Part shown: piece by piece, positions 20,949 through 62,557 of the stretch
Layout of the letters: the number at the start of each line of letters is the position of its first letter
Position numbering within the stretch: position 1 is the stretch's first letter
Assembly: GCF_021646545.1 (NCBI RefSeq)
Contig: NZ_JAKIRP010000009.1
Coordinates: 62,001 to 126,000 of the forward strand
DNA from: Chitinophaga filiformis
GTDB taxonomy: Bacteria; Bacteroidota; Bacteroidia; Chitinophagales; Chitinophagaceae
Direction: 5' to 3'
Length of the DNA stretch: 64,000 nt
Translations under genes and position numbers: made by a program
Notes under the pieces: generated by a model
Seen by the model: the letters and a program-made list of their open reading frames with translations, nothing else
What the model was told of the DNA's origin: nothing
Database searches by the model: none

Positions 20949-21749
20949 TTAATGTAAATTAAGGTATATGTTGGCAACGTTCGTTATTTTCTGAAAAAAA
21001 ATTTTTCTTGCATTCTCGTCAAGAAGTAATCGTGCCGAATCAAAAGATCTGCTTTCCACATTTAGTACGCCTATCACTTCTTTTCGTTGTCTGTCTACGC
21101 CTTTATCTTTTATCACCAATGGACATGAGGCCACAATAACAATTCCCTGAACGCTCTTTTTCTGCATTTCGTTTAATTTAAAGTTATGTCCTTTCAATAG
21201 TTCTGCTAACAATGTAACACCGACGATATTATGAGTGTTAGTTTCTTTTCCTTCCTGAAAGGCCTTACCACATATCCCCTGATTTAGAGTCATTCGATAG
21301 TTAGGCGGAATTCCATTACTGCCATGATCCCAGACGACTTTAAGGACTTTTCCGAAAAAAGAGAAACGTCGCCCTTTCCACACAAATTGCATATCCAGCG
21401 AGTTTGCCTCTGCCGGTTCGAGGCAATGAAAAATGCTGGTCTTAATCAACATTACACTGAAGCTGAAATCAAAGTTAGAATCATATTCCTCGTTGAATTT
21501 GATAGCCAGCTCTTTCATGATATCCCACTTTTTCCTGGCTTGCTTCTCAAATAACTTTAACGGCGACCAGAGGGTGTAATAGTATATAAAAACAGTAGCC
21601 AGAATGACAAAATAGTCAAGCCACGTCGTAATCTGAGGATATATTAATGTAATCCTGGCACAGAAATTAGGAACTTTCATGAGCGTTAGCAACATTGTGA
21701 CTAACGGCGCTAAGAGATACACTACGAATCTTCTCATGGAATGCTTCAT
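20949..21749 (-). CDS. Membrane protein with C-terminal GAF-like domain
   Basis: This 266-residue protein has two predicted membrane helices near residues 7-24 and 40-60 with a basic cytoplasmic stretch after them. Residues about 90-266 look like a GAF-type sensor: a conserved GICGKAFQEGKE motif, a middle strand pattern, and the end IGVLNVESRSFDSARLLL. There is no attached kinase or cyclase, so the output must pass to another protein. The gene is divergent from the chromate-resistance set. The GAF assignment rests on motif order by eye. Confidence 0.7.
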   Translation of the reverse strand: MKHSMRRFVVYLLAPLVTMLLTLMKVPNFCARITLIYPQITTWLDYFVILATVFIYYYTLWSPLKLFEKQARKKWDIMKELAIKFNEEYDSNFDFSFSVMLIKTSIFHCLEPAEANSLDMQFVWKGRRFSFFGKVLKVVWDHGSNGIPPNYRMTLNQGICGKAFQEGKETNTHNIVGVTLLAELLKGHNFKLNEMQKKSVQGIVIVASCPLVIKDKGVDRQRKEVIGVLNVESRSFDSARLLLDENARKIFFQKITNVANIYLNLH

Positions 21750-22013: not shown

Positions 22014-22850
22014 ATGAAATGGATCACACGTGAACGACCTAAGATCGATCGCCTTGCCTGTCCCTGGCTGATTAAGAGATTCATCGATAAAGACGCAGAG
22101 ATCATCTACGTTCCTTTCGACCAGGTAACAGAGAAGGCAAAACAATTAGATGCAACTCCTTTTGACGTACCTGGAGTTGAATTTACCCATTACGGTGACT
22201 ACTGCACCTTCGACTACTTTATACAGAAGTATCAGATAGAAGATCCTGCTGTACATACACTTGCCGTCATCGTACGTGGCGCAGATACAGATCATCATGA
22301 ACTGGCAGCACAATCGTCCGGACTATGGGCCATTTCCGCCGGGCTTGCGTTTAACTATCCGGACGATCAGGACCTGCTGGAAAAGGGTATGATCATATAT
22401 GACGGTTTGTATAGCTGGGCAAAGCATCTGCAAAAAGAAAAACATACGCAACAGCCATTTGAAAATCTGTTGCTGAATGTGTTCAACACGTACCTGAAAC
22501 AAAAACCAGGCGCTAAGAAGATCCCTGCCTGGGCAAAGGAACTGAAAGAGATCATACAGGACCATATTGATACCAATTTAAGCCTGAAAGAGATTTCCAA
22601 AGGGCTGGAGATAAGTCCGTCCTATCTCTCACGGGAGTTCTCAAAGTACTTCGAAGACCTGTCCTTCGGTGAATACATCCGCAAACAGCGTATTGAGAAA
22701 GCCATTTCATTGATGCAGTCGTCCGCTTATTCACTAACGGAGATCGCCTATCTGACCGGGTTTTCAGATCAAAGTCATTTCACACGCATCTTCAAAAAAC
22801 ACACCGGTAAAAATCCTTCCGATTACAGGAAAAAAAACGGTAAAAAGTAA
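22014..22850 (+). CDS. ChrB C-terminal domain fused to AraC-type helix-turn-helix
   Basis: The first 150 or so residues of this 278-residue protein match the C-terminal domain of chromate-resistance protein ChrB (RPKIDRLACPWLIKRFID, VEFTHYGDYCTFDYF, IVRGADTDHHELA). Residues about 175-278 form an AraC-type HTH pair (LKEISKGLEISPSYLSREFS; SLTEIAYLTGFSDQSHFTRI). In proteobacteria ChrB is a chromate-responsive repressor with a different N-terminal DNA-binding part, so here the sensor seems to have gained an AraC output domain. The start at 22014 fits the domain; an upstream in-frame extension to 21777 is unsupported. chrA follows 108 bases downstream. Confidence 0.9.
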   Translation: MKWITRERPKIDRLACPWLIKRFIDKDAEIIYVPFDQVTEKAKQLDATPFDVPGVEFTHYGDYCTFDYFIQKYQIEDPAVHTLAVIVRGADTDHHELAAQSSGLWAISAGLAFNYPDDQDLLEKGMIIYDGLYSWAKHLQKEKHTQQPFENLLLNVFNTYLKQKPGAKKIPAWAKELKEIIQDHIDTNLSLKEISKGLEISPSYLSREFSKYFEDLSFGEYIRKQRIEKAISLMQSSAYSLTEIAYLTGFSDQSHFTRIFKKHTGKNPSDYRKKNGKK

Positions 22851-22885
22851 TTTCCATACAAATACATCATTTCCGTTCTATTTTT

Positions 22886-22900
22886 TGCCTGCATCAGGCA
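22886..22900. promoter_or_regulatory. Palindrome between the chrB fusion and chrA
   Basis: TGCCTG-CAT-CAGGCA is a perfect inverted repeat 59 bases before chrA. It could be an operator for the ChrB-AraC protein or a weak hairpin. Confidence 0.4.
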
Positions 22901-22958
22901 GTAGCATTGCATTAGTCTGCGCCGCAATAAGATCCGGCGTAGCTTATAAATTACTTGT

Positions 22959-24116
22959 ATGAGTGAAAAGCAATCCTACACCCTGGCAGGGCTGGTAAAG
23001 TATTTTTTAAAGTTGGGGACCATTGGCTTCGGTGGTCCGGTAGCACTGGTGGGTTATATGAACCGCGATCTGGTAGAGCAACGCCGTTGGATTACGGAAG
23101 AGGACTATAAAGAAGGCCTGGCGCTGGCGCAATTAGCACCGGGGCCATTGGCCGCTCAGCTAGCCATTTACATCGGGTATGTGGATTATAAGATCCTGGG
23201 GGCCACTTTAGTGGGGCTGGCCTTTGTACTGCCGTCATTTTTAATGGTGGTAGGCCTGGGCATTGCTTATGTGCAATTCGGTGGGCTGCCCTGGATGCAG
23301 GCACTGTTTTACGGTATAGGAGCAGCGGTTATAGGCATTATAGCTGTCAGCAGTTATAAACTCACAAAAAAAAGCCTGGGAAAGGATTGGTTGCTGTGGA
23401 GCATTTTCGGGGTTTTGACCATATCTACCTTTATTTATGAAAAAGAACTGATATGGCTGATCCTGCTGGGAGGCATCGCCGTCTGGTTGTGGAGAACCCG
23501 TCCGCGTTTGCTGAATACAACACAGTCAGTGTTGTATGCTCCCGTGCTCCTGCAAATAACCGGTCAATTGTCGGCAGATGAGAAACTGGTACAGACAGGC
23601 TGGTTCTTTCTGAAGGCCGGCGCTTTTGTCTTTGGCAGCGGACTGGCTATTGTTCCCTTTTTGTATGGCGGTGTCGTAAAAGAATATCAATGGCTAAATG
23701 AACAGCAGTTCCTGGATGCGGTGGCTGTCGCTATGATCACACCTGGACCGGTAGTAATCACCGTTGGTTTCATAGGCTACCTGGTAGCAGGATTACCCGG
23801 CGCCTGTGTGGCCGCGCTGGCAACTTTTCTGCCCTGTTATCTGTTTACAGTATTACCAGCGCCTTACTTTAAAAAATACGGTAAACATGTCGCTATCAAG
23901 GCATTCATTGATGGTGTAACGGCTGCGGCTATTGGCGCCATCTCGGGGGCGGTACTCGTACTTGCGAAACGACAGTTTACCGATATCACTTCTGTCGTGA
24001 TAGCACTGGGAACAATACTCATCCTGCTCAACTTTAAAAAAGTGTCTGAACTGCTCATTATCGTGCTGGCCGCTGCCATCGGACTATTGATCAAATTCAT
24101 TCCTGAGCTGATTTAA
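22959..24116 (+). CDS. chrA: Chromate efflux transporter ChrA
   Basis: This 385-residue inner-membrane protein has two CHR domains, each of about five or six helices. The first half shows FLKLGTIGFGGPVALVGYM and LAQLAPGPLAAQLAIYIGY; the second repeats the pattern with FFLKAGAFVFGSGLAIVPF and ITPGPVVITVGFIGYLVAG. The long-chain type pumps chromate out using the proton gradient. It follows the ChrB-AraC gene, and the superoxide dismutase gene begins 21 bases downstream, so all three likely share one transcript. Confidence 0.94.
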   Translation: MSEKQSYTLAGLVKYFLKLGTIGFGGPVALVGYMNRDLVEQRRWITEEDYKEGLALAQLAPGPLAAQLAIYIGYVDYKILGATLVGLAFVLPSFLMVVGLGIAYVQFGGLPWMQALFYGIGAAVIGIIAVSSYKLTKKSLGKDWLLWSIFGVLTISTFIYEKELIWLILLGGIAVWLWRTRPRLLNTTQSVLYAPVLLQITGQLSADEKLVQTGWFFLKAGAFVFGSGLAIVPFLYGGVVKEYQWLNEQQFLDAVAVAMITPGPVVITVGFIGYLVAGLPGACVAALATFLPCYLFTVLPAPYFKKYGKHVAIKAFIDGVTAAAIGAISGAVLVLAKRQFTDITSVVIALGTILILLNFKKVSELLIIVLAAAIGLLIKFIPELI

Positions 24117-24137
24117 TTAACATCTAAAGCAACATAA

Positions 24138-24860
24138 ATGGACCGTAAGGATTTTCTTTCTGCGACTGGTATTCTCTCTTTAACGGCGCTGCTACCCGCC
24201 AATTCCGTGTTAGCAGAAAATTACAACAATAATGGACTGGACAAGCTAACGGATGCAGCGGGAAATTTTCAGCATCTGCCCTTACCCTACAATAAGAATT
24301 TTCTGGAACCATACATGGACGAGGAGACTGTCTACCTTCATCATACATTTCATCATGGTGGTGCTGTAAAAGCGGCTAATACTGATCTGCAAAAGATCAG
24401 GAAAGCCCTGGACGATAACAGCCTTGAAACCGTTGATTACTGGACGAAGAAATTATCTTATCATTTCTCTTCCCATGTGCTTCACACGATTTTCTGGACA
24501 AATCTGACCAATAAGAAGACAGAGCCGAAAGGCGAACTTCTAAAACGCATCGAGAAAGATTTTGGTAGCTATGATAAGCTGAAGAGCTACCTTTCTAAAA
24601 CATCCAAAGATGTGGATGGTAACGGCTGGGGCATTCTGGGCTATCAGCCATATAGCGACAAACTCACGATCCTGCAATGTGAGAATCACGAGAAACTAAC
24701 CCAATGGGGTGTTATACCATTGCTGGTAGTTGATGTATGGGAACACGCCTATTATCTGAAGTATAAAAATAAAAGAACTGATTTCGTAGACAATATGCTG
24801 CAGATCATCAACTGGGATGATGTTGCAGACAGGTTGAACACCGCCACGAAGCTGGTATAG
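24138..24860 (+). CDS. Exported Fe/Mn superoxide dismutase (ChrC-like context)
   Basis: This 240-residue enzyme converts superoxide to peroxide and oxygen. Metal ligands are seen at His68 (YLHHTFHH), His116 (LHTIFW), Asp199 and His203 (DVWEHAYYLKY). A Tat-like signal (DRKDFLSATG, likely cut after residue 26) implies export, unusual for this enzyme. At the position where many Mn enzymes have Gln in an N-Q-D motif, this protein has E-N-H, placing His184 near the active-site water, so Fe versus Mn use is open. It sits 21 bases after chrA; some chr operons (chrBAC) carry a superoxide dismutase called ChrC, matching this arrangement. Confidence 0.93.
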   Translation: MDRKDFLSATGILSLTALLPANSVLAENYNNNGLDKLTDAAGNFQHLPLPYNKNFLEPYMDEETVYLHHTFHHGGAVKAANTDLQKIRKALDDNSLETVDYWTKKLSYHFSSHVLHTIFWTNLTNKKTEPKGELLKRIEKDFGSYDKLKSYLSKTSKDVDGNGWGILGYQPYSDKLTILQCENHEKLTQWGVIPLLVVDVWEHAYYLKYKNKRTDFVDNMLQIINWDDVADRLNTATKLV

Positions 24861-24984: not shown

Positions 24985-25362
24985 TTATCTTATCATCGGG
25001 AGATATTTTTCCCTGTTCTCTATGATCACCCAGATGTTTATCAGGAATAACGGAAGCGCAATAGCTAAGCCTGAAGGCGCCACGGTAATAGTGGTCAGCA
25101 TAACCCCTACCATTACCGGCAAAATGATAAGTGCACCAAGCGCTCTGGTTTTTGGAAAAATGAAGAGTATGCCGCCCACGATTTCTGCAATTCCGACAAG
25201 CGGCATCAGCCAGGTGATCTGCATGATAGCGCCCATTACCTTCATCATATTTTCAGGCATATCTTTCGGAGGAGGCATGTAATTGAGGAACTTGTTCAGG
25301 CCTGCATTAATGAACATCAGTCCGAACAGCAGGCTGACAACAAATAGAATTTTTTTCTTCAT
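24985..25362 (-). CDS. DoxX family membrane protein
   Basis: This 125-residue protein has four predicted membrane helices (FVVSLLFGLMFINAGLNKF; LMPLVGIAEIVGGILFIF; GALIILPVMVGVMLTT; ALPLFLINIWVII), the DoxX/DUF417 pattern. Function is uncertain; some members act with thiol or redox partners. It follows the ArsR and SRPBCC genes on the minus strand with a 62-base gap and probably belongs to the same operon, an arrangement common in Bacteroidota. Confidence 0.85.
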   Translation of the reverse strand: MKKKILFVVSLLFGLMFINAGLNKFLNYMPPPKDMPENMMKVMGAIMQITWLMPLVGIAEIVGGILFIFPKTRALGALIILPVMVGVMLTTITVAPSGLAIALPLFLINIWVIIENREKYLPMIR

Positions 25363-25424
25363 AGTGTTCTGTTTTCCTGAATATAGTTTTTCGTGTTTAC
25401 GTGGTGAGGTGATCTAAATTTAAT

Positions 25425-25928
25425 CTATTTTTTTAATGAAGGCAATAATTCGTCCAGTCCTTCCATTGCCATTGCCAGTCCTTCCTTGAAGCCCATCTGA
25501 ATAGTAGTTTCCAGTTGAGCCAGGTCGTCGTAGGAAATGTGTATCTGCACAAGGGTGATTTGTCCTTTATCAGTAAAGGAAACCTCCCATTTGGACTGTG
25601 GCATTTGAGGGTTCACATTACCATCTGCATCTGCAAAGGCATCGAGTCCGGTAAATGCTTTTTGCGGCTGGATCTTTTTGTAGTTGGCCAGTGCCCAGTG
25701 TTCTTCACCTTCTGGTCCGACCATGGCATAGTGCCAGTATCCGCCTTCTCTGAAGTCCATGGTTTTGGTCCTTGCTCTCCATGGTTTTGGGGCCCACCAC
25801 TGGTCAAGAAGCTCGCTTTTGGTATAGGCGTCCCATACCAGCGCTACTTCTGCATCAAATTCCCTTTTTACGGTGATTGTCTTGTTTTCCTTATCAACGG
25901 AAAAATCAAAGGCTAAGTTGACGTTCAT
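25425..25928 (-). CDS. SRPBCC (AHSA1-type) domain protein
   Basis: This 167-residue protein has the START-like ligand-binding fold. ITVKREFDAEVALVWDAYTK and LLDQWWAPKPWRARTKTMDF at the N-terminus and the C-terminal helix MGFKEGLAMAMEGLDELL are typical of AHSA1-like members. The ligand is unknown. It overlaps the upstream ArsR gene by 4 bases, a standard regulator-SRPBCC pair. Confidence 0.92.
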   Translation of the reverse strand: MNVNLAFDFSVDKENKTITVKREFDAEVALVWDAYTKSELLDQWWAPKPWRARTKTMDFREGGYWHYAMVGPEGEEHWALANYKKIQPQKAFTGLDAFADADGNVNPQMPQSKWEVSFTDKGQITLVQIHISYDDLAQLETTIQMGFKEGLAMAMEGLDELLPSLKK

Positions 25929-26245
25929 TTTTTATTGTTTTTAAGCGTTAATAATATTTTATCGAGCTCGTTAAAACGGCTCTCCCATATTTTTCTGAAT
26001 TGGTCGAGCCATTTGTCGATCTCTTTCATTTTGTCACCATTAAGCTGATAAAAAATCTCCCTGCCAGACTGCTCCTGTGTTACCAGCTGGCATTCCGCCA
26101 ATATGCGCAGATGCTTGGACACCGCTTGCCGGGTGGTGTTAAAATGCTCTGCTATGGCGTTGGGTGTCATCGCCTGTGATGCGATCAATAATATAATTGC
26201 CCGCCTGGTCGGATCTGCGATGGCCTGAAAAACATCCCTTCTCAT
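25925..26245 (-). CDS. ArsR-type winged-helix regulator
   Basis: This 106-residue regulator has a winged helix at residues about 3-75 (AIADPTRRAIILLIASQ; ITERAs replaced by AIAEHFNTTRQAVSKHLRIL). No cysteine metal site is visible, so it is the non-metal subtype that pairs with SRPBCC proteins. It heads the operon that continues with SRPBCC and DoxX genes and is likely autoregulated. A T-rich gap of about 260 bases separates it from the GntR gene. Confidence 0.92.
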   Translation of the reverse strand: MRRDVFQAIADPTRRAIILLIASQAMTPNAIAEHFNTTRQAVSKHLRILAECQLVTQEQSGREIFYQLNGDKMKEIDKWLDQFRKIWESRFNELDKILLTLKNNKK

Positions 26246-61780: not shown

Positions 61781-62557
61781 ATGTTTCAACGTATTTTCCG
61801 GAAGATCATCCTCTTTATTCCCGTTATGGCCGGCCTGTGTTCCTTACTGGCCATGCAGCCTGTTAAACCCCGTTTCCGCGTACTGGCACTGGCGGAGAAC
61901 GGTGGGCATCATATTGCCTATTCAAAAACTGCAAAGGTCTGGCTGGACAAGCTGGCCGCCGACAGCGGTTTTGCTATTGATTACGTTCAGAACACTGATC
62001 AGATAGACAGCGCTTTTCTGGCGCAATACCAGTTGTTCATCCAGCTGGACTATCCTCCATATGCCTGGAAGCCGGCAGCAGTGAAAGCATTTGAACAGTA
62101 TATATCTGAGGGAAAAGGTGGCTGGATCGGGTTCCATCATGCTTCATTACTGGGAGAGTTTGATGGTTATGGTTTATGGCCCTGGTTTTACGATTTTATG
62201 GGAAAGATCCGCTTCAAAGATTATATCGGCGATTTTGCCGCTGGCGATGTACATGTGGAAGATGCTGCGCATCCTGTGCTGAAAGGCGTGCCGGCAGTAT
62301 TTAATGTAAAGACGGAGGAATGGTACACCTACGACAGAAGTCCGCGTCCTGACGTACATGTACTGGCCAGCGTGGACGAAAGCTCTTATAAACCTGCTTC
62401 TGAAAAGAAAATGGGTGATCACCCTGTTATATGGACAAATAGCGCATATAAGACCCGGAACGTCTATATATTTATGGGGCATTCGCCTGACCTGTTTGAA
62501 AACAGGGCATACCTTCTTTTGTTCCGTAATGCCATTTTCTGGGCAGCGGGGAAGTAA
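61781..62557 (+). CDS. ThuA-like domain protein, exported
   Basis: This 258-residue protein begins with a membrane/signal segment (IILFIPVMAGLCSLLAM) and carries a ThuA-type fold: FRVLALAENGGHHIAYSK, LFIQLDYPPYAW, GGWIGFHHASL and VYIFMGHSPDLFENR. ThuA proteins are glutamine-amidotransferase-like and often lie with sugar catabolism genes; the cysteine nucleophile is absent here, as in the family. The start at 61781 is preferred over frames that begin at 61706. Substrate unknown. Confidence 0.88.
   Translation: MFQRIFRKIILFIPVMAGLCSLLAMQPVKPRFRVLALAENGGHHIAYSKTAKVWLDKLAADSGFAIDYVQNTDQIDSAFLAQYQLFIQLDYPPYAWKPAAVKAFEQYISEGKGGWIGFHHASLLGEFDGYGLWPWFYDFMGKIRFKDYIGDFAAGDVHVEDAAHPVLKGVPAVFNVKTEEWYTYDRSPRPDVHVLASVDESSYKPASEKKMGDHPVIWTNSAYKTRNVYIFMGHSPDLFENRAYLLLFRNAIFWAAGK

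Follow-up and report, generated by a model that had tools for sequence, protein, structure and literature searches.

The window analysed here is a 64,000-nucleotide (nt) stretch of the genome of the soil bacterium Chitinophaga filiformis (positions 62,001 to 126,000 of contig NZ_JAKIRP010000009.1), and this account concerns a regulator gene within it, the two genes that follow and the promoter element between them. The regulator gene (22014..22850, +; ATG at 22014) encodes 278 amino acids (aa) and joins two domains. A ChrB_C domain (PF09828) of the ChrF type occupied residues 3-135 (22020..22418, +) and scored 167.7 bits against a cut-off of 25; an AraC-type double helix-turn-helix occupied residues 196-273 (22599..22832, +), with 79.2 bits for HTH_18 and 62.9 bits for HTH_AraC, the latter matching in two stretches and the double helix-turn-helix lying above the Pfam cut-off. 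The product is referred to below as the fusion. Next came chrA (22959..24116, +), encoding a 385-aa chromate efflux transporter that matched the full-length transporter model TIGR00937 with 412.3 bits (cut-off 171.7) and contained two Chromate_transp stretches. The third gene (24138..24860, +) encoded a 240-aa Fe/Mn superoxide dismutase (SOD) with both SOD domains above cut-off (PF02777, 118 bits; PF00081, 55 bits). Its N-terminus resembled an export signal when judged by eye, as did those of all 15 SODs of related loci. An earlier reading, made from the sequence alone (the sequence-only reading), had named a ChrB_C domain joined to an AraC helix-turn-helix and followed by chrA and an exported SOD, and this gene content was right. 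Its analogy with chrBAC also held well, the order regulator-chrA-SOD being that of plasmid pMOL28 (chrB-chrA-SOD-chrE-ChrF, with DUF1259 near).

Related loci were taken as the best 80 of at least 554 relatives (one genome per species) plus two plasmids, giving 82 loci, or 83 with the window. By their titles the best 80 were all from Bacteroidota, and the nearest named relative, from Chitinophaga ginsengisoli, was 93% identical. The frame of the fusion was open upstream as far as 21777, and a coding start there was considered and rejected: 61 of the 82 loci had no in-frame start upstream of the position equivalent to 22014, and the other 21 extended by at most 50 codons, so that 22014 is the likely start.

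The survey of such fusions that the sequence-only reading had called for showed a recurrent protein. ChrB_C was present in 69 of 394 Chitinophagaceae genomes. Among the 91 matched rows, 63 were frames of at least 270 aa and 23 were frames of 140-180 aa, length alone being no proof of fusion; 22 Chitinophagaceae frames were verified as full fusions. Across the phylum the fusion profile matched 17 of 395 genomes, 15 of them nearly full length. With AraC matches counted, 1966 plasmid records showed some match to the protein; at E 1e-70 the fusion was found in two (Pedobacter and Spirosoma), and a third record with 80% coverage was gone. Two nearly full-length relatives were found in viral contigs. 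No fusion was seen outside Bacteroidota, other phyla not having been surveyed directly. Judging from these counts, the fusion appears to be common in Bacteroidota. A ChrB_C-AraC fusion was not found described in the literature searched, which covered titles and the beginnings of abstracts for part of the matching papers.

A composite promoter behind the regulator gene

A conserved composite element sat just after the stop codon of the fusion gene irrespective of which gene came next, and in some species it started within the regulator's final codons. In the window it consisted of two predicted operator boxes, taken from alignment and matrix, and a promoter core taken from alignment: Box1 (ATACAAATACATCA; consensus ATACAAAAGGTAA; 22856..22869, +), Box2 (GTTCTATTT; 22875..22883, +) and a -7 box of Bacteroidota type (TAGCATTG; consensus TAnnTTTG; 22902..22909, +). 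The sequence-only reading had proposed a reporter test of 22851-22958, and an activator-type site upstream of chrA was indeed found there. The motif TTCTAT occurred within 160 nt past the stop codon in 69 of 83 loci, the window included, compared with 9 of 83 in the 200 nt upstream of the fusion start. An alignment anchored on this motif held 66 loci, leaving out 17 of the 83, and showed Box1 as ATACAAAAGGTAA, Box2 as GTTCTATTT and then TAGnATTG 26 nt past the start of TTCTAT. At this fixed distance the -7 box had T in 55, A in 59, T in 65, T in 58 and G in 52 of the 66 loci, and no other conserved element lay between Box2 and the -7 box in the aligned promoters.

The available text of PMC9723704 and PMC7366714 gives the Bacteroidota -7 consensus as TAnnTTTG, at -12 to -5. 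Applied to the -7 box at 22902-22909, this predicted a transcription start near 22914 and put Box2 in the -33 region. Class II AraC activators usually cover the -33 region, with a site that ends upstream of the -7 box. The arrangement of Box1 upstream and Box2 at the predicted -33 region would be the layout of such an activator. The Box1 of the window (ATACAAATACATCA) was partly degenerate when set against ATACAAACAGGTCA in two close relatives and may be a weaker site.

A matrix was built from 39 sites in 53 loci that were titled as other families or none (the family of two training loci, L063 and L067, was unstated), 14 loci without TTCTAT at the place being dropped. The window site (22856-22909) scored 25.3 bits, the top of the 64 kb on both strands; the next site scored 9.5 bits and 40 shuffles reached at most 10.8. 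In 29 held-out loci, the top site of the whole locus lay at the expected place in 26, with at least 10 bits in 22 and fewer than 10 bits in four, and three loci (L050, L065 and L073) scored higher elsewhere. The pattern TTCTAT-N20-TAnnnTTG, searched in the window genome, gave 14 sites, and its reversed control gave 8. No site exceeded 10 bits apart from that of the window and one upstream of the gene HYP171 (in two identical contig copies); a site at L131 reached 9.0. At L131:670-2194, on contig C4 of the window genome, a gene for a DUF6597-AraC regulator precedes an NAD(P)H-binding gene; the Box2 and -7 box there are unchanged, and Box1 differs. Since L131 has the pair with a different Box1, the pair seems to be a general feature of AraC-type activators here, perhaps the common layout of AraC-activated promoters in the window genome, and Box1 is likely the specific part.

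The sequence-only reading had proposed a palindrome, TGCCTG-CAT-CAGGCA (22886..22900, +), as the operator. It lies between Box2 and the -7 box, in a spacer with little information. When the 108-nt gap was resampled with a Markov model, 218 of 1000 sequences also held a repeat with 6-bp arms. In the 66 aligned loci, any such repeat was found at this place only in the window, L077 and L100, with unrelated letters; C. ginsengisoli was down to 4-bp arms, and a close relative (genome G354, L169) had both arms intact around another loop. The palindrome was rejected as operator, being near chance, unconserved and placed in a low-information spacer, and the conserved element of the gap is Box1-Box2 with the -7 box. 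The palindrome may have a role within a small group of close relatives, G354 keeping both arms.

HYP171 and a wider predicted regulon

The second high-scoring site in the window genome lay 15 nt upstream of HYP171 on another contig, unlinked to the fusion gene, and was found with a pattern that used neither Box1 nor HYP171. HYP171 is an exported-looking protein of 171 aa, and neither the representative nor the copy of the window genome had a Pfam match. That copy (164 aa, L138:1550-2044), with the operator of the fusion upstream, occurred on contigs C22 and C23, which had identical site and gene neighbourhoods in opposite orientation; the estimated contamination of the assembly was 6.2%, and the repeat is perhaps a duplicated assembly piece.

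Of the 394 genomes, 46 had HYP171; 30 of these also belonged to the 69 with ChrB_C (Fisher p = 6e-15, uncorrected for relatedness). A site of at least 14 bits preceded 25 of the 29 copies scored from ChrB_C genomes (29 of 30 genomes); two of the remaining copies had a variant at the right place, and the other two were distant paralogues (44 and 35% identity) without a site. None of the 17 copies scored from genomes without ChrB_C (15 of 16 genomes) had a site of at least 14 bits, the maximum being 1.5. G379, G351 and the second G000 copy were left out of this scoring, and L225-L227, which repeat L198-L200, were counted once. Since most of the 29 copies adjoin the fusion, only the five on other contigs or far away from it are separate evidence: the site was present in three (the window genome, G153 and G377) and absent from the two paralogues. 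G153 is a draft of 420 contigs, and the linkage of its HYP171 is uncertain. HYP171 is likely an unlinked member of the regulon of the fusion, which on this evidence would be larger than chrA and SOD.

The sensor domain and the gene neighbourhoods

An alignment set the sensor domain of the window against proteins from annotated plasmids, two ChrB and three ChrF-type. Identity was 57, 53 and 59% to the three ChrF-type proteins and 32% to both ChrB domains. In a tree of 136 domain rows (145 columns, 64 of 129 inner branches open, two ChrB rows only), the fusions fell with ChrF and apart from ChrB, and two of them (L111 and L115) grouped with the ChrF clade; the tree was too shallow to tell whether the fusion or ChrF arose first. 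Assignment of the sensor to ChrB was rejected in favour of the ChrF type on both identity and tree placement. The suggestion of the sequence-only reading that a chromate-sensing fold drives an activator-type output thus stood in part: a fold of the chromate family is indeed placed on an AraC output, and its type is ChrF, not ChrB.

Residue numbering from Ochrobactrum tritici ChrB could be transferred, because a Pseudomonas ChrB (P0004) agreed with it at all 14 positions that had been mutated. According to the available text of PMC3817168, the chromate response of O. tritici ChrB needs R180, R187 and H229, since R180A, R187A and H229A abolish induction; R18 and R23 are apparently needed for DNA binding. 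The three chromate-response residues correspond to R6 (codon 22029-22031, +), R13 (22050-22052, +) and H59 (22188-22190, +) of the fusion. Together with D12, D51 and D91, they were kept in 82 of 82 related loci and did not vary across 15 aligned rows of ChrB, ChrF and fusion proteins. ChrB_N (PF20229), which bears R18 and R23, was not found in the fusion at E 0.001 and was found in both ChrB controls. C16 was replaced by Ser in 3 and C64 by Ser in 7 of the 82 loci, which makes dependence on either of these cysteines unlikely as a general switch mechanism.

In addition to an ordinary fusion, two genomes of the window's genus carried a second, divergent ChrB_C-AraC protein (L164:1555-2442 in G303; L165:1094-1981 in G376). 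When aligned by eye, its R6, H59 and D91 were changed together to Cys, Leu and Val, and D12, R13, D51 and the helix-turn-helix were kept. In the 4-kb stretch around it we found no operator of the fusion, and no chrA among the larger frames. The protein looks like a sensor-altered paralogue, and the joint loss of R6, H59 and D91 fits one common site in the sensor.

The predicted structure of the sensor domain alone had a mean pLDDT of 95.6; in the full-length prediction the linker was poorly modelled. A Foldseek search with the domain model gave a best match of E 0.98. A second structural comparison (VIA) placed DHH/RecJ-type phosphoesterases in the top 15 rows, presumably all of the top entries being of DHH type, with a best Z of 8.1, which is the background level of the tool. 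An hhalign comparison of the domain with 11 NrnA-like proteins gave a probability of 0.3%, leaving kinship with DHH proteins unsupported, and no relative of the sensor half with a solved structure was present by sequence among the matches listed. A DHH/RecJ-like fold of the sensor is a modelling lead only.

Behind the fusion gene, chrA was the most frequent neighbour (47 of 82 loci), followed by HYP171 (35), DUF1259 (17), SOD (15) and stand-alone ChrF (15). An OEP/RND efflux run followed the fusion in 7 of 82 loci, representatives being checked; in L056, L097, L100, L108 and L112, an OEP/RND/membrane-fusion run stood directly behind it in the stead of chrA. DUF1259, ChrF and SOD also belong to classical chr elements of Proteobacteria. 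An Aminobacter plasmid stretch carried ChrB, ChrA, ChrF (the first and third distinguished by length), DUF1259, SOD and a Tn3 transposase. The neighbours shared with these elements point to a chromate-resistance toolkit in which chrA is not obligatory. On Pedobacter plasmid pA27BH1 (L117, 1-11439), the fusion, a HYP171-like gene, chrA, ChrF and DUF1259 stood beside Tn3-family transposase/recombinase genes, apparently forming a mobile Bacteroidota chr element.

The window genome (9.07 Mb) had a single ChrB_C match. It also encoded a second, longer ChrA (a 444-aa frame; contig C11:1104241-1105398), within 1.5 kb of which the operator of the fusion was not found. Next to the fusion, a 266-aa product encoded at 20949-21749 (-) had no Pfam or NCBIfam match and showed no sign of membership in the unit. 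On the other side, DoxX-like, AHSA1-like and ArsR-type helix-turn-helix genes (24985-26245, -) faced the SOD gene, and genes matching the first two in length occupied the same place in C. ginsengisoli (L036).

Proposed mechanism, alternatives and known systems

We read the locus as the Bacteroidota version of chrB-chrA-chrC, in which the fusion would be a one-component, chromate-responsive activator of the AraC type driving chrA, SOD and HYP171, and we put the probability of this reading at roughly 60%. From the domains and the placement of the site we infer DNA binding, activation, metal binding and a chromate signal as follows. The ChrF-type domain would bind chromate, or a product derived from it, around R6, R13 and H59, and a metal held by D12, D51, H59 and D91 may lie beside the ligand site. 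The AraC domain would bind Box1-Box2, at about -58 to -31, in place of a -33 element and would recruit polymerase to the TAGCATTG -7 box of a promoter that begins immediately past the stop codon of the regulator gene itself. In this way chrA and SOD would be switched on, together with the unlinked gene for the predicted envelope protein HYP171.

Several observations weigh against this reading. TTCTAT was missing from the 160 nt behind the stop codon in 14 of 83 loci, several of which had a variant, and 7 of the 29 held-out loci had no site of at least 10 bits at the place. Box2 with the -7 box is not specific, the pair recurring at L131. The Box1 part scored 0.4 bits in the window compared with 17.0 at the unlinked HYP171 site, the low score coming partly from a one-base shift in spacing. 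The HYP171 test is not fully independent, because most site-bearing copies adjoin the fusion; moreover, the copies from genomes without ChrB_C were more distant (35-58% identity, compared with 55-100% for the site-bearing ones). The related O. tritici ChrB acts as a repressor, and in vitro it was not released from DNA by chromate (PMC3817168). The literature searched held no experiment on any member of the fusion family. Finally, the collinear run contained no chrA in 38 of 82 loci, which leaves room for a signal besides, or older than, chromate. These 38 loci count against the sequence-only reading as well. Three of them (L040, L073 and L110) had chrA past an opposite-strand frame, and three ended within 3 kb.

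These chrA-less loci also bear on what is sensed. The sensor might respond to a ligand other than chromate (superoxide, the redox state of a bound Mn, or sulfate, molybdate or vanadate), chrA being one of several envelope targets. HYP171 stood alone in the collinear run in 14 of the 38 loci, and an OEP-RND-MFP operon stood directly behind it in five. Purified O. tritici ChrF contained 1.0 Mn and had SOD activity, as PMC4779226 reports. A redox or metal signal deserves to be taken seriously, because ChrB-DNA was unresponsive to chromate in vitro and ChrF is reported with Mn and SOD activity. We nevertheless regard another ligand as possible rather than probable: the ChrB residues required for chromate induction are invariant here, chrA is the commonest neighbour, and DUF1259, ChrF and SOD occur in the chr elements of Proteobacteria.

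It is improbable that the fusion is a repressor that leaves Box1-Box2, or changes shape upon it, when chromate is present. Such a protein would resemble O. tritici ChrB, which represses its own promoter and loses induction with the three substitutions (PMC3817168, available text), and the residues concerned are kept here. However, the ChrB DNA-binding domain is missing from the fusion, and no further conserved element was present between Box2 and the -7 box. The site itself covers the -33 region and ends upstream of the -7 box, the usual place for a class II AraC activator. That the element is a general AraC promoter layout, uninformative on the fusion, is very unlikely: the pattern gave 14 sites against 8 in the control, one of them behind another AraC-type gene, but Box1 discriminated among them and the site tracked the presence of ChrB_C in the genome, the latter being confounded by HYP171 distance and linkage.

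Beyond the activator reading of this locus, we tentatively offer a broader conjecture, which we think doubtful as a whole. A large, undescribed class of Bacteroidota activators may sense through a ChrF-type metal-binding domain, and stand-alone ChrF may be at root a protein that binds chromate or another oxyanion (perhaps with mononuclear Mn and a DHH-like fold) and not mainly an SOD. The core output would then be an envelope response made of a small exported outer-membrane-like protein, an exported SOD and efflux operons, with ChrA added in about half of the loci.

The activator reading offers Bacteroidota, which have their own promoter type, a one-component switch that probably responds to chromate and can be put to the test, its operator, transcription start and regulon all being predicted. 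The unsettled role of the ChrF domain becomes directly testable, because a transcription factor probably uses it here as its sensor. HYP171, which is conserved, looks exported and lacks a Pfam family, is named as a likely member of the response. The fusion is also a candidate part for a chromate biosensor based on activation instead of the repression by ChrB.

The fusion shares features with three known kinds of protein. It resembles ChrB of TnOtChr and pMOL28 in having a ChrB_C-family domain with the three chromate-response residues and in standing at the head of a chrA-SOD operon. Unlike ChrB, it lacks ChrB_N and has, at the opposite end, a DNA-binding domain from a different family, its sensor being 32% identical; its predicted site lies behind, not before, the regulator gene, and activation is expected where ChrB represses. 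Its domain is 53-59% identical to stand-alone ChrF, with the same start (MKWITRERPKIDR) and the same invariant residues, whereas ChrF is a single domain of about 150 aa and the fusion is a 278-aa regulator in which a linker joins that domain to AraC. With activators of the AraC/XylS family it shares the C-terminal double helix-turn-helix and a predicted site that adjoins the promoter core on its upstream side; to our knowledge, a ChrF-type sensor half is not among the N-terminal domains usual in that family.

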